DNA from: Chitinophaga pinensis
GTDB lineage: Bacteria; Bacteroidota; Bacteroidia; UBA4408
Assembly: GCA_945872355.1 (NCBI GenBank)
Contig: CAMBZU010000018.1
Location: 1 to 48,262 of the forward strand
Direction: 5' to 3'
Length of the DNA stretch: 48,262 nucleotides
Below are positions 19,832-27,008 of this stretch, piece after piece (the stretch's first letter is position 1; each line of letters opens with the position of its first letter). Made by a program: the position numbers and the translations under genes. The notes under the pieces were generated by a model that worked only from the letters and a program-made list of their open reading frames with translations, was not told the DNA's origin and searched no databases.

Positions 19832-22519
19832 ATGAAAGCACTAAAAATATTATTTGCATTTTCCTTTTGGTTAATATACAGCCAAGTTTTTGCTACTCAT
19901 AATAGAGCAGGAGAAATTACCTATACACAAGTAGGCGCTAGTCCATTTACTTTAGAGTTTACGCTTACAACCTATACCAACGTAGGGCCGCAAATACAAG
20001 CCGACCGCTGTCAGTTAACTTTATTTTTTGGCGATGGTGATAGTTGCGTTGCCAATCGAGTGAATGGCCCAAGCGGCACTTGCCCTTTTCCAGCAAATAT
20101 GGGTGAAATCATTTTAAACCCTACAGGTGGGCAAGGCGGTATTAAAAAAAATATTTACAAATGTGTGCATACCTATGCTGGTGGCGGTGTTTTTACAGTT
20201 TCTATGACCGACGAAAATAGAAATGACGGAATCAACAATATCCCAGGCTCTGTAAATGTGCCTTTTTATGTAGAAACAGTCATTACACTAAGTCCTTTTT
20301 TAGGCGCAAATAGCGGTGCCATTTTATACAATCCTCCTATCGACAATGCCTGTGTTTGCAAACGTTTTGTGCACAACCCAAACGCTATTGATCCCGATAA
20401 TGATAGCCTTTCTTATGCACTCGGTATTTGCAAAGGTGCCAATGGCAACAATATTGTTGGGTACTCTATTCCAACAGGAATAACGCTAGACCCAATTTCT
20501 GGCGATTTTATTTGGGAATGCCCAACTCCGCAAGGTGAGTTTAATTTTGTAATATTAATTATTAGCTGGAGAAATGGCTTGGCGATTGACTCTATTACAA
20601 GAGATATGCAAATATTGGTGGATGGAAGTTGTACAAATAACCCACCTGTGCTCGATGTGCAAGATATTTGTGTTGATGCTGGCACCTTGCTCAATATTCC
20701 AGTCACAGCAACTGATCCCGACAATCATAACATTGTCCTTACCGCAACTGGAGCCTTATTTAATTTTAATCCAAACCCAGCAACATTTACTCAAGGTTTA
20801 ACTGGTAATTCACCATTAACAGGCACTTTTAATTGGCAAACCGACTGCAGTAATGTAAAAAATATGGCCTATCAAGTTTCTTTTAGAGCTGAAGATATTC
20901 CAACCAATACCAACGATCAAGCCTTAGTTGATATTAATACAATTAGAATCACGGTGGTTGCTCCACCTCCAACCAATTTAACCGTTAATCCGCAAGGAAC
21001 AGCCATTAATTTAAATTGGATACCAACCATTTGTACACAAGCTGTTGGCTATAAAATCTATCGCAGAAGCGGGCCTTCGGGCTATGTGCCGCCACAGTGC
21101 CAAACTGGTGTACCATCTTCTACAGGCTACGCATTAATTGCTACATTAACAGGAAGTGGCATTAATACTTTTGTTGATAATAATAATGGGCAAGGGCTCA
21201 TCCATGGAATTGACTACTGTTATATGATTTGCGCTTATTTTGCAGATGGAGCCGAAAGCTATGCTTCAAACGAGGATTGTGCAACACTTAAAAAAGATGT
21301 TCCAATTATTACACATGTAACAGTTGATACAACAGCTATTCAAGGAAAAAATACTGTCATTTGGTCACCCGCACGCAGAAGTGAATTAGATACCATCACC
21401 TTTCCTGGCCCATATAAATATATTATATACAGAAGCAACGGTTCAAATTGTAATACTTTAACTGCTATAGACTCTATTGGTAACGTAAGTTTACCTGGCA
21501 ATGATGCCGATACTATTTATCAGCATGTAAACGTTGATACTTACAACAATTCAAACAGCTATCGCCTCGAATTTTATAATGATAATCCCAGAAAATATAT
21601 CGGAAGTTCGCATTGTGCATCTTCAGTGTATTTAGATGTTGTACCTAGTGATAATTCTTTAACGCTTGATTGGACTGCCAACGTGCCTTGGTTGGAAGAT
21701 TCATTTACAGTTTACAGACAAAATCCAGCTACATTAAATTACGACAGTATTGGCACCTCAACCATTTCTACTTATACCGATGGTAATTTAACCAATGGAA
21801 CTAATTATTGCTATAAAATTAAATCTGCAGGCCATTATTCTGAACCAGGAATTCTAAAACCATTATTGAACTTTTCACAAGAAGCTTGCGGTATGCCTTA
21901 TGATAATATAGCTCCTTGCGCACCAACTATCGCCATAACTCCAAACTGCGATTCAATTATCAATACCCTAAATTGGAACAATCCCAATCTCACTTGCGCC
22001 GATGATGTGTTACAGTATAAAATATACTTCAGCACAAACGATAGCGCAGATTTTAATTTAATAGCGAGCATTAACGATGCTGGAGTACTTAATTTTACGC
22101 ACAATAACAATGGTATTTCTATTGCAGGCTGCTATTATATAACTTCACTCGACAGCAATGCAAATGAGAGCATTTCGAGCGATACAGTGTGTGCCGACAA
22201 TTGCCCTTCTTACTTATTGCCTAATGTATTTACTCCTAATGGAGATGATTTTAATGATGTATTTAGGCCTTTTCCTTACAAGTATATTCAAAGTATTGAA
22301 ATGCAAATTTTCAACAGATGGGGAAATCTTGTTTTTTCAACCAATGATCCCGAAATCCTTTGGAATGGCACCAATCAGCAAAGTAAACAACCATGTACCG
22401 ATGGAGTTTACTATTATATATGCAATTTCACTGCTGTTAAGCTTCAAGGCAATATCACCGAAAGTTTGCATGGATTTGTGCAACTTATTTCGAGCCCTGC
22501 TGCTAATGGTGGAAAATAA
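19832..22519 (+). CDS. Fibronectin-like secreted protein with T9SS type B sorting domain
   Basis: An 895-residue protein with a signal peptide ending near 'YSQVFA', followed at once by 'THNRAGEITY', a start seen in many large Bacteroidota surface proteins. Residues 30-370 hold beta-sandwich domains with a Cys-rich stretch and 'DPDNDSLSY' and 'TDPDNHNIV' cadherin-like motifs. Residues about 375-770 look like fibronectin type III modules with 'YKIYRRSG', 'YKYIIYRSNG' and 'FTVYRQN'. The last 90 residues ('LPNVFTPNGDDFNDVF', 'FNRWGNLVF') are the type B sorting domain. It lies 66 bases after the lamin-tail gene and 39 bases before a beta-barrel gene, so the three may be co-expressed. It is probably a surface adhesin; no catalytic motif is seen. 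Confidence 0.9.
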   Translation: MKALKILFAFSFWLIYSQVFATHNRAGEITYTQVGASPFTLEFTLTTYTNVGPQIQADRCQLTLFFGDGDSCVANRVNGPSGTCPFPANMGEIILNPTGGQGGIKKNIYKCVHTYAGGGVFTVSMTDENRNDGINNIPGSVNVPFYVETVITLSPFLGANSGAILYNPPIDNACVCKRFVHNPNAIDPDNDSLSYALGICKGANGNNIVGYSIPTGITLDPISGDFIWECPTPQGEFNFVILIISWRNGLAIDSITRDMQILVDGSCTNNPPVLDVQDICVDAGTLLNIPVTATDPDNHNIVLTATGALFNFNPNPATFTQGLTGNSPLTGTFNWQTDCSNVKNMAYQVSFRAEDIPTNTNDQALVDINTIRITVVAPPPTNLTVNPQGTAINLNWIPTICTQAVGYKIYRRSGPSGYVPPQCQTGVPSSTGYALIATLTGSGINTFVDNNNGQGLIHGIDYCYMICAYFADGAESYASNEDCATLKKDVPIITHVTVDTTAIQGKNTVIWSPARRSELDTITFPGPYKYIIYRSNGSNCNTLTAIDSIGNVSLPGNDADTIYQHVNVDTYNNSNSYRLEFYNDNPRKYIGSSHCASSVYLDVVPSDNSLTLDWTANVPWLEDSFTVYRQNPATLNYDSIGTSTISTYTDGNLTNGTNYCYKIKSAGHYSEPGILKPLLNFSQEACGMPYDNIAPCAPTIAITPNCDSIINTLNWNNPNLTCADDVLQYKIYFSTNDSADFNLIASINDAGVLNFTHNNNGISIAGCYYITSLDSNANESISSDTVCADNCPSYLLPNVFTPNGDDFNDVFRPFPYKYIQSIEMQIFNRWGNLVFSTNDPEILWNGTNQQSKQPCTDGVYYYICNFTAVKLQGNITESLHGFVQLISSPAANGGK

Positions 22520-23324: not shown

Positions 23325-23345
23325 TGTAAGAATTTCTTACATTTG
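23325..23345 (+). promoter_or_regulatory. Palindrome overlapping the -7 element of the mbnP-type operon
   Basis: TGTAAGAATTTCTTACA (23325-23341) has perfect 8-base arms around one base. It overlaps the -7-like TACATTTG at 23338-23345. The -7 box ends three bases before the ATG at 23349, so transcription would begin at or next to the start codon. A protein bound to the palindrome would block the promoter. The arrangement is visible in the sequence; the regulatory role is inferred. Confidence 0.5.
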
Positions 23346-23348
23346 CGC

Positions 23349-23717
23349 ATGCTTTTTAAAAAACTCATAGCAATAACCATCGCCTACTCTTTTATGCTTC
23401 AGCTTGGAAGCCAGTTTGGGGCGTGGGTTAATTATATGGCAAATGCAGATTACGCGCTTGAGCATTGCGAAAATAAAGCCTCTAAAACAATGCAATGTTA
23501 TGGTAATTGCGTTTTAGTAAAAGACATCAAATCATTAGAAAAAAATCAATCCAAAGACAACAATTTACAGGTAAAAGTTAAAGAATTTCAATTGTTTGGT
23601 CCCACAACTTTTGTTTTACATTATCTTATCAATACTATCCACGAAACACATCTTACTCCCTATTCAGAAAAAATAGTAAGCAATTTCTTTCTCAGTATTT
23701 TTTACCCCCCAGATTAA
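23349..23717 (+). CDS. Small Cys-motif membrane/periplasmic protein of a metal-type operon
   Basis: I take the ATG at 23349 (122 residues); an in-frame TTG two codons upstream lies in the promoter. The N-terminus is hydrophobic (about residues 3-27). It is followed by a short Cys cluster of the form CENK-x(5)-QCYGNC. This C-x-N-K...C-x-G-x-C pattern belongs to a group of small Bacteroidota proteins that I recall from the neighbourhood of copper-related and TonB-receptor genes; this is from memory, not a search. The Cys residues suggest thiol-based metal binding at the inner-membrane face of the periplasm. It is the first gene of a run ending with the MbnP-family gene, downstream of two palindromes. 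Confidence 0.7.
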   Translation: MLFKKLIAITIAYSFMLQLGSQFGAWVNYMANADYALEHCENKASKTMQCYGNCVLVKDIKSLEKNQSKDNNLQVKVKEFQLFGPTTFVLHYLINTIHETHLTPYSEKIVSNFFLSIFYPPD

Positions 23718-23794
23718 TAAAATAAATTGTTTAACCCACTTTTTACTTTTTATTAATTCACTTTAGGCCACGCGTGCCTATACAATATTTATTT

Positions 23795-24745
23795 ATGAAA
23801 AAAACAGTACTGTTGGTGCTGTGCATCGCATTGCCAAATTTATTATTGGCATGTGGCTGCGATATGCTCATTGCATACCAAGGCATACTGCCAAGTGATT
23901 ACAATGGTAACATTGGCCTAAACTTGCGTCAACGCTATTTTAAAGGAGCTGCGTCTACACATAACCACTCCGATGGCTCAGCGCACGAACATGGTCAAAT
24001 GAAGCAATTGCTCACCAATTATGAGCTAAATTACCGCTTCTTTATAACCCGAAAAATTATGCTTTCTGGAAATTTACCTGTGGCCGATTATCAGCTAAGT
24101 TCAAGCAAAGCAGCGGCTACTTCAAGAAACACGGGCATAGGCGATCCATTTGTTGTCGCAAAATATGAAATCATTTCTCCATCAAAAAAAGAAGAAGTAA
24201 AAAACAAGCATCGCCTGTTAATTGGCACTGGTGTAAAATTACCACTAGGCACTTATTACAAGGATATGCTTAATAATTTGCCAGCAGATGAAAATTTACT
24301 TCAACTACAATTGGGAACAGGTTCTTTTGATTGGATAGCTAATGTTAATTATCAACTTAAACATAAAAATGCAGGCTTGCAGACAGATGTTTCATTTAAA
24401 AAAAATTTTACCAATAAGGCTGGATTTGAAAAAGGAAATCAATTGAATGCGCAAGCCAATTATTTTTATCAAAAAAGGGGGCAAAAATCAGTATTTATGC
24501 CTTTCATAGGTGCTTTATATGAAAATGCCATATCCGATAATATTAATAACAATGTATTAATCAATACAGGTGGCAGCAATTTATATGGCAATTTTGGTGC
24601 AGAGTTTTTTATGAAAAAAATTTCAATTTATTTCAATTATCAACAATTGCTGAGCCAAGCATTAAATGGCTTTCAGATGAAAAACAACCTAAGGTTTACC
24701 TTAGGTATCAATTACAATTTAAATTATAAAAACACTAATAATTAA
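23795..24745 (+). CDS. Predicted outer-membrane transporter-like protein with His-rich loop
   Basis: Begins at the ATG at 23795 (316 residues); an in-frame GTG at 23774 would spoil the signal sequence. The leader ends in 'LLLACGCDM', which fits a lipobox (LLAC) but could also be a signal peptidase I site. Residues about 48-60 contain a His-rich loop 'THNHSDGSAHEHG' that could bind metal. The rest alternates like a beta-barrel ('LTNYELNYRFFITRKIMLSGNLPVADY', in separate strands) and ends with an aromatic-rich strand. Position in an operon with a Cys-motif protein and MbnP suggests a role in metal sensing, export or uptake at the outer membrane. I cannot name the family with certainty. Confidence 0.65.
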   Translation: MKKTVLLVLCIALPNLLLACGCDMLIAYQGILPSDYNGNIGLNLRQRYFKGAASTHNHSDGSAHEHGQMKQLLTNYELNYRFFITRKIMLSGNLPVADYQLSSSKAAATSRNTGIGDPFVVAKYEIISPSKKEEVKNKHRLLIGTGVKLPLGTYYKDMLNNLPADENLLQLQLGTGSFDWIANVNYQLKHKNAGLQTDVSFKKNFTNKAGFEKGNQLNAQANYFYQKRGQKSVFMPFIGALYENAISDNINNNVLINTGGSNLYGNFGAEFFMKKISIYFNYQQLLSQALNGFQMKNNLRFTLGINYNLNYKNTNN

Positions 24746-24749
24746 TCTT

Positions 24750-26000
24750 ATGAAAAAAACAATATCAATTATATTATTAAGCTTATTATTTATTCAATTT
24801 AACTTTGCGCAAACACCTGTTTGGGTGCGTCAAGCTCAGCCAGATGGTGTGGCTTGTTTGGGTGTTTCTTTTTCTAACGATGGCACAAAAATAGTTTCAG
24901 GATCTGAGTGCCCCGATGCAAGAGTAAGAATTTGGGAAGCAAGCACAGGAAATATGCTTTACGAAAATTCCGATACACTCATGGAATGCTACATGGGAGC
25001 AGCTTATTCGGCAAATGGAATGTACTTTGCTCTTATTGAGGAAACAGGTATTCTTTCTGTTTACAGTTATATGGGCGCAACCCCACAACTTTTATACAAT
25101 ATTGATACTGAAACAGGTGCCGCCTACAGTGTGGCTTTTTCTCCTGATAATATGAAAGTGGTTACTGGTGGCGATAATGACAGTGTGTATGTATATGATG
25201 TAACTAGTGGAAATGTGTTGATGGCATTGGGAGGTCACACTGCTAATGTTTTAGCTGTCACCTTTTCTCCTAATGGAAATTTAATTGCCTCAGCAGATCA
25301 ATCTGGTAAAGTTAAAATATGGAATGCAGCCTCTGGCGCTCTTGTTAATACTATTAGTGCACACAATTCAGCAATCAATACCATTAAATTTTCACCCGAT
25401 AATCTATCTATTGTTACAGGAGCAAATGATCATATGATTCATAAATTCAATGTAAGCAATGGTAATATGACAGGTATGATTCACGAACACACTGATGCTG
25501 TTAATCAAATCGACATCACCCAAAATCAACAATACATCATTTCTGTAAGTGATGACCAAACCATTAGAATTTTCGACTTTGCCTCGGGCACTGAGCTAAA
25601 ACTTATTAATGATGCAGTAAGAGGTGCTCAAATTACTATCTCTATTGCTCAAGATAACAATCGTTTTGTAGTTGGCACAGGTAATGGATCTGTAGTTTTA
25701 TGGCGCATTGATGAAATTTTAAGTGTAAAAGATTTAAACTTTAACAACATAAAAGTAGCTGTTAGTCCCAATCCAGCCCAAGAATTTATAAAAATCACCA
25801 TTGATAATGAAAATGCTTCACAAACAAGTATTAAACTTTTCGACCATACCGGAAAGCAAGTGATGAATATATTTGAAGGTATGTTGCAAGACAATGCCAC
25901 ATTTACCGAAAACATAAAACACCTCGCTAACGGTCAATACTTATTGAACGTTAATATTAATGGAAGTATTACATCGCAACCAATTTTAATACATAAATAA
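24750..26000 (+). CDS. Secreted WD40-repeat protein with T9SS type A sorting domain
   Basis: A 416-residue protein with a signal peptide (LLSLLFIQFNFAQ). It then has about seven WD40 blades, residues 30-325, with repeated 'VxFSPDNxxIVTGxxDxxVxIWDxxSGN' patterns. The last 80 residues start 'VAVSPNPAQEFIKI' and are a typical T9SS type A sorting domain. It starts 4 bases after the transporter-like gene and its stop abuts the next start, so it is inside the operon. A WD40 propeller exported by T9SS inside an mbnP-type operon is unusual. It may be a surface scaffold for the other products, but this is inferred from context only. Confidence 0.85.
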   Translation: MKKTISIILLSLLFIQFNFAQTPVWVRQAQPDGVACLGVSFSNDGTKIVSGSECPDARVRIWEASTGNMLYENSDTLMECYMGAAYSANGMYFALIEETGILSVYSYMGATPQLLYNIDTETGAAYSVAFSPDNMKVVTGGDNDSVYVYDVTSGNVLMALGGHTANVLAVTFSPNGNLIASADQSGKVKIWNAASGALVNTISAHNSAINTIKFSPDNLSIVTGANDHMIHKFNVSNGNMTGMIHEHTDAVNQIDITQNQQYIISVSDDQTIRIFDFASGTELKLINDAVRGAQITISIAQDNNRFVVGTGNGSVVLWRIDEILSVKDLNFNNIKVAVSPNPAQEFIKITIDNENASQTSIKLFDHTGKQVMNIFEGMLQDNATFTENIKHLANGQYLLNVNINGSITSQPILIHK

Positions 26001-26156
26001 ATGAATCAAAATTTCATGAGTTTTATAAGCAATTTTGAGATTTTTATTGTTATCTTTATGGCAATGTTCGGACTTATCTTTGCTCGTTTAATACAAATTA
26101 AACACGCTATTTTTAAATTTAACTATTTACTTACTAAAGAAGAAAACAAAAAATGA
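26001..26156 (+). CDS. 51-residue single-span membrane protein
   Basis: ATG at 26001 directly follows the stop of the WD40 gene, and its stop overlaps the ATG of the MbnP gene in an ATGA junction (26153-26156). The peptide has one hydrophobic span (about residues 12-31, 'FEIFIVIFMAMFGLIFARLI') and a basic, Lys-rich C-terminus (residues 44-51) that should face the cytoplasm. The exact packing with both neighbours argues for a real gene. I do not recognise it. Confidence 0.7.
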   Translation: MNQNFMSFISNFEIFIVIFMAMFGLIFARLIQIKHAIFKFNYLLTKEENKK

Positions 26157-26956
26157 TAAAAAAAACACTAGTATTCGCAATTATTTTAGCAACTATTAGT
26201 TTTAATGCCTGCAAAAAAGATGAGGCAGTTACAGAGGAAAACTTACCTGAAACGCCTGCACCTACTCCTACACCCATTCCTGCTAGTCAACTAGGCACTA
26301 TCAATATCGATTTTGACAATATGGTAGGTACCAATGATCTTGTGTTAAACACAGGTTCATACACCAATGCAGCGGGTAATCCTTTTAACGTTACTAAATT
26401 TATTTACTACATTTCAAACATCAAGTTAACAAAAACAGATGGCACTAAATTTATTGATAACAACAGCTATTACCTTATCAACGAAGCTACAGTTTCATCT
26501 CAATCATTAACTTTAGATAGCATTCCAGTTGGGGATTACAATGCTATGGAATTTGTTATTGGAGTAGACAGCACTAGAAACGTATCTGGAGCGCAAACAG
26601 GTGCTTTAGACCCAACAAATGATATGTTTTGGACATGGAACTCTGGCTACATCTTTGTAAAAATGGAAGGCACTTCTACTAGTGCGCCAAGTAGTGATTT
26701 AACTTTTCATATAGGAGGTTTTAAAGCGCCAAATAACACCATTCGCACTGTTAATAGAAGTTTTCCAACTAACTTATCAGTAAAAAACACAACAGTTAGT
26801 AAAGTAAAAATGAAAACAGATGTATTAGAAATGTTTACAAGCCCGCAAAATATTGATTTCAGCACCTTCAATTCTACAATGGGAGGGCCAACATCAGTAA
26901 CTGTAGCTAACAATTATGTAGATATGATTACTGTCAAAGAAATTATCAATAATTAA
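26153..26956 (+). CDS. MbnP-family metal-binding lipoprotein
   Basis: A 267-residue protein starting with a lipoprotein leader (lipobox 'FNAC', Cys at about residue 20). A Pro/Thr-rich linker (residues 33-47) and one MbnP domain (about 50-265) follow. The domain shows family hallmarks: 'FNVTKFIYYISNIKL', 'FWTWNSGYIFVKMEG' and 'FHIGGF'. MbnP proteins are copper-associated periplasmic or surface proteins. In characterised systems their partner MbnH, a dihaem MauG-like enzyme, oxidises a Trp of MbnP to kynurenine to create a copper site. No MbnH gene is in the window. It is the last gene of a unit running from 23349 and is followed by a strong terminator. Confidence 0.85.
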   Translation: MIKKTLVFAIILATISFNACKKDEAVTEENLPETPAPTPTPIPASQLGTINIDFDNMVGTNDLVLNTGSYTNAAGNPFNVTKFIYYISNIKLTKTDGTKFIDNNSYYLINEATVSSQSLTLDSIPVGDYNAMEFVIGVDSTRNVSGAQTGALDPTNDMFWTWNSGYIFVKMEGTSTSAPSSDLTFHIGGFKAPNNTIRTVNRSFPTNLSVKNTTVSKVKMKTDVLEMFTSPQNIDFSTFNSTMGGPTSVTVANNYVDMITVKEIINN

Positions 26957-26975: not shown

Positions 26976-27008
26976 AAGGCTGTACTTTAATTAGTACGGC
27001 CTTTTTTT
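26976..27008 (+). terminator. Rho-independent terminator of the mbnP-type operon
   Basis: AAGGCTGTACT and AGTACGGCCTT pair (one G-U) around a 6-base loop and run into seven T residues. It lies 20 bases after the MbnP stop codon. Confidence 0.85.

Follow-up and report, generated by a model that had tools for sequence, protein, structure and literature searches.

An MbnP operon that has no neighbouring MbnH gene and encodes a predicted T9SS-exported WD40 protein is a variant of a gene module that recurs across the class

The window analysed here is a stretch of 48,262 nucleotides from Chitinophaga pinensis (Bacteroidia; contig CAMBZU010000018.1), in which five open reading frames follow one another on the forward strand with successive junctions of 77, 4, 0 and -4 bases (Table 1). 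For the first of these genes there are two alternative starts, a TTG at 23343 or the ATG at 23349. The last is followed by a terminator-like hairpin whose stem is the longest among the six terminator-like sites of the region (2.4 +/- 1.5 in shuffles). Reading frames, junctions and hairpin are all present as the first-pass annotation had claimed in describing five packed genes and a terminator. Searches of the curated families (Pfam, NCBIfam) returned no meaningful match for genes 1, 2 and 4.

Table 1. Features of the operon in the window.
Feature	Position	Strand	Characteristics and basis
Small Cys-motif protein (gene 1, 122 aa)	23349..23717	+	N-terminal hydrophobic stretch, CENK...CxGxC.L, C-terminal PP
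Outer-membrane beta-barrel (gene 2, 316 aa)	23795..24745	+	His-rich first loop (H56, H58, H64, H66); predicted by AlphaFold2 and Foldseek
WD40 beta-propeller (gene 3, 416 aa)	24750..26000	+	Signal-like N-terminus, T9SS type A tail
Hydrophobic, probably membrane, protein (gene 4, 51 aa)	26001..26156	+	Sequence
MbnP lipoprotein (gene 5, 267 aa)	26153..26956	+	PF20243; lipobox-like Cys20, WTW 160-162, His186
Intrinsic-terminator-like hairpin, then T run	26976..27003	+	11-pair stem, tail TTTTTATTTT

Gene 5 matches the Pfam MbnP family with an E-value of 4.7e-56 and 190 bits against a gathering score of 27. Its score for the NCBIfam model MbnP_like_WxW (TIGR04052), 52 bits, lies under the 140-bit cut-off, as do those of the two MbnH-paired MbnPs of the host, and the WxW motif itself is present (W160-T-W162). 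The AlphaFold2 model of the protein (pLDDT 90.7) has strong PDB matches only to the MbnP structure 7l6g (E 1.6e-8, TM about 0.5). Both copper binding and kynurenine are known for the MbnP family. Gene 3 encodes WD40 repeats recognised by Pfam, and its residues 338-414 match the T9SS type A tail TIGR04183 with 33.0 bits (cut-off 23), which makes its product a predicted T9SS type A cargo. When the window contig was scanned for MbnH none was found, and the adjacency by which an MbnP-MbnH pair is recognised is absent here. The Pfam and TIGR04183 matches and the contig scan thus bear out the initial description of an MbnP operon with no adjacent MbnH and with a predicted T9SS-exported propeller.

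The AlphaFold2 model of gene 2 (pLDDT 86.9) is a barrel of about 12 strands, for which Foldseek places FapF and a COG4313 channel best (E 1e-9 to 5e-11, TM 0.57-0.61), and its four histidines lie in the loop joining strand 1 to strand 2, in agreement with an earlier proposal of a His-loop, barrel-like protein. If the usual topology holds, the His-rich stretch H56-H66 is probably extracellular. A Pfam search with the window barrel gave no match, including none to Phenol_MetA_deg, a family matched by 4 of 34 members of the barrel family, and a scan of the genome contigs with the barrel as query also gave no match. A divergent barrel subfamily is found at L261 (6202-7236) and L272-L275, Met-rich in the first of these (YMDMDMHMFMLMYG) and adjoining HMA-domain proteins in L273 and L275; it is a possible copper channel. 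In gene 1, residues C40, C50, G52, C54 and P121 are invariant across 27 relatives. We considered and rejected an assignment of this protein to the HYC_CC_PP small proteins (NF047658), which one of the 27 relatives matched at E 0.036, a look-alike at most.

Also proposed in the first-pass annotation was that MbnH is missing, that other proteins have taken its place and that the operon may be a different route for copper handling. The host genome (3.40 Mb in 133 contigs, 96% complete) argues otherwise. It encodes three MbnPs, namely the window copy, one on contig C37 (L009 7161-7961, - strand) and one on contig C8 (L008 5533-6240, + strand), and an MbnH directly follows both the C37 copy (L009 6126-7157) and the C8 copy (L008 6240-7256), which rules out a genome without MbnH. 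Contig C9 encodes a third di-haem peroxidase (L010 3573-4562), MauG/CCP-like and with no adjoining MbnP. The C37 pair is found amid the same neighbours in each of the three congeners (L148-L150), and a tree of 72 MbnPs places the window copy as sister to precisely four genus-wide paired MbnPs, those of C37 and of the three congeners, with moderate support (87/82). Read most simply, this grouping makes the window MbnP a relative of a genus-wide MbnH substrate. As to whether an MbnH encoded elsewhere acts on the window MbnP, the genes themselves exist, twice over; their action on this copy belongs to the mechanism proposed below. Nor have MbnPs without a neighbouring MbnH lost their tryptophan: the WxW motif is retained in 30 of 33 such proteins, compared with 85 of 89 that have MbnH adjacent, and a general loss of the residue in them is rejected.

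Comparison across the class places the operon in a wider module. We found relatives of the barrel in 111 of the 395 class genomes, and the 62 barrel loci examined in detail include a small Cys gene in 57 cases and an MbnP in 42, commonly in the orders Cys-barrel-MbnP-MbnH and Cys-MbnP-MbnH-barrel. Since the same gene kinds are found together in other families, the pattern is more than chance. MbnH is absent nearby in 13 of the 42 barrel loci that have MbnP, and of the 11 other-family genomes with such an MbnH-less module, 10 encode an MbnP-MbnH pair at another place, the exception (G259) having only an unlinked MbnH-like gene. In this class it is therefore commonplace for MbnP to have no MbnH in its operon, and a kynurenine-free route does not follow from it. 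Many Cys-barrel loci (L048, L049, L058, L075, L098, L101 and others) have, in the position of MbnP, a DUF4625- or Ig-like lipoprotein about 130 aa long. At L079 6902-8662, in the single-contig genome G063, MbnP and MbnH are split over several frames, possibly by sequencing frameshifts. Within the host's own family, only one other genome has the barrel (G007, in the order Cys-barrel-MbnP-MbnH); the congeners are without it, and G001 and G002 retain the downstream 125-aa gene and tilS with no such operon upstream, from which we conclude that the operon is accessory in the genus.

These observations bear directly on the idea that the window MbnP acts without MbnH, with the propeller and the other proteins replacing kynurenine-based copper binding. 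The lack of MbnH on the window contig is as this idea would have it, and so is a second operon with the same gene kinds, L258, which is also without MbnH. We nevertheless judge it very unlikely, given the two MbnHs elsewhere in the host, an MbnP-MbnH pair elsewhere in G115 as well (L218), the WxW kept in the window protein, and the frequency of MbnH-less loci in genomes with pairs elsewhere. We take the operon to be one of the recurring variants of a known copper system, and not a route that has dropped MbnH.

Whether the WD40 gene might be a chance neighbour had been raised at the outset, and was first suggested by our own searches: the protein has no close relative in the host's taxonomic family, and the other 61 barrel loci first examined contain no WD40 gene. 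A class-wide search overturned this. It recovered WD40 relatives at E < 1e-30 in 14 other genomes, adjoining a Cys gene in 4 of the 14 and lying away from the module in 10, and the former count has a probability of about 1e-4 or less even on the assumption of as many as 10 Cys genes per genome. The full set of gene kinds recurs in another family at L258 (Cys, a 114-aa hydrophobic protein, MbnP, barrel and WD40), and smaller sets at L261 (Cys, an AraC regulator, a 66-aa hydrophobic protein, WD40 and the Met-rich barrel), L263 (Cys, AraC, WD40) and L259 (Cys, WD40). All 15 members share an EExG motif and two invariant cysteines, which are C54 and C80 of the window protein, and so form a specific WD40 family, predicted to be exported. 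It is thus unlikely, in our estimation, that the WD40 and 51-aa genes are functionally unrelated insertions into a Cys-barrel-MbnP operon. Besides the empty family search, the 61 loci and the 10 relatives away from the module, such insertion would fit the tree of WD40 relatives, in which branches are long and the module-linked members fail to come together as a single clade; the four Cys-linked relatives and the enrichment of T9SS cargo in MbnP operons, described below, speak against it.

The 51-aa hydrophobic product of gene 4 is, on its composition, probably a membrane protein. Small hydrophobic proteins are also encoded in comparable operons at L258, L261 and L188, and those three resemble one another; homology of gene 4 to them was rejected, the similarity not being significant. 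Upstream of the operon, at 19832-22519 of the window, lies a gene for a CHU_C-tailed 'THNRAGEITY' protein. A relative of this protein (phmmer 1e-231) is encoded in another family at L259 9772-12372, adjoining the Cys-WD40 genes there, and may be one more partner or stand there by coincidence.

Export by T9SS appears to be linked to MbnP beyond this one propeller. In about 135 loci, 28 of the 240 genes that accompany MbnP in its transcription units have a T9SS tail, compared with 36 of 1047 genes elsewhere in the same loci (Fisher p 3e-6, with an odds ratio of 3.7), an enrichment that we treat as a lead because the test takes no account of phylogeny, relies on a home-made tail profile and counts the window itself. 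The majority of the T9SS-tailed neighbours belong to the YHYH type (PF14240), are 400-475 aa long and adjoin MbnP-MbnH. T9SS-exported proteins stand directly beside MbnP-MbnH at twelve loci (L154, L195, L197, L200, L201, L206, L223, L225, L234, L239, L241 and L243), and PF14240 was found in every one of their exported proteins that was scanned. Other tails belong to different protein types: at L155 an LVIVD propeller immediately precedes an MbnP without MbnH, and at L184 the tailed protein is arylsulfotransferase-like. Our literature search found nothing linking YHYH with T9SS, nor anything on MbnH in the phylum or on the metallo-mystery pair.

A copper role for the operon is plausible from the MbnP family and from the neighbours of related modules. 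SCO1/SenC occurs in two of these modules, and YHS and HMA proteins are also among the neighbours, the HMA proteins being closest to CopZ. One module, L104, adjoins a heavy-metal P-type ATPase that scores best as the cadmium/zinc type, together with a CzcB-like adaptor, so that another metal is possible. That the unit handles such a metal (e.g. zinc), or several, in place of copper would also agree with the His-rich loops, which suit zinc too. We regard this as decidedly improbable in view of the SCO1/SenC genes, the CopZ-like HMA proteins, the Met-rich barrel variant at L261 and the copper binding for which MbnP is known.

Most of what is known of MbnP and MbnH comes from methanotrophs. The window MbnP shares with the described MbnP/MbnH pair (TIGR04052/TIGR04039, PF20243; PMC3621798) its fold, family and lipoprotein-like N-terminus, and likewise has WxW followed by a His some 25 residues on, but it has no adjacent MbnH and is joined instead to the Cys protein, the barrel, the T9SS WD40 protein and the hydrophobic protein. 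In the MopE/SACCP and CorA/CorB systems of methanotrophs, a surface-linked copper-binding protein has a di-haem peroxidase partner (PMC3621798), and the partner genes are adjacent, unlike the situation of the window MbnP. MopE carries kynurenine, and neither MopE nor CorA is similar in sequence to MbnP (PMC3621798). The barrel of about 12 strands is common to the window protein, the COG4313/Phenol_MetA_deg barrels and FapF (Foldseek), whereas the window barrel has 11-16 percent identity to COG4313 and FapF proteins, a His-rich loop, an N-terminal Cys motif and linkage to the Cys protein and MbnP. To our knowledge, the methanotrophs with MopE or CorA have no T9SS. Closer in this respect are the units of T9SS-tailed YHYH protein, MbnP and MbnH, where a T9SS-exported protein is encoded beside MbnP as in the window; there the exported protein is YHYH and not WD40, MbnH is present, and an adjoining barrel or Cys gene is mostly lacking.

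The best explanation of the operon, to which we assign about an even chance of being right, is that it encodes an envelope unit for a metal, most likely copper, and is a variant of the class-wide module whose MbnP is matured in trans by MbnH. On this proposal the WD40 propeller would be exported over the outer membrane by T9SS and act outside the cell, the outer-membrane barrel, whose His-rich loop is probably extracellular, would form a passage able to bind metal, a thiol site on the inner side would be provided by the small Cys protein, and the MbnP lipoprotein would bind the copper, with conversion of its Trp to kynurenine probably carried out in trans by MbnH, most likely that of the C37 pair. 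A more specific version, which we hold to be somewhat unlikely, is an undescribed form of surface metal uptake in which the exported WD40 protein with its Cys pair would capture copper or a copper chelate and hand it to the His/Met barrel and then to an MbnP matured by an MbnH encoded elsewhere, YHYH proteins serving alike at other loci.

The surroundings of MbnP and MbnH in bacteria other than methanotrophs are little described in the literature that we found. The data presented here reveal a class-wide module of Cys protein, barrel and MbnP, with or without MbnH, together with a recurrent link between MbnP and T9SS cargo. Several proposals consequently become testable: that T9SS has a role in surface copper uptake or defence, that a single MbnH may mature several MbnPs, and what roles the uncharacterised barrel and Cys protein may play.
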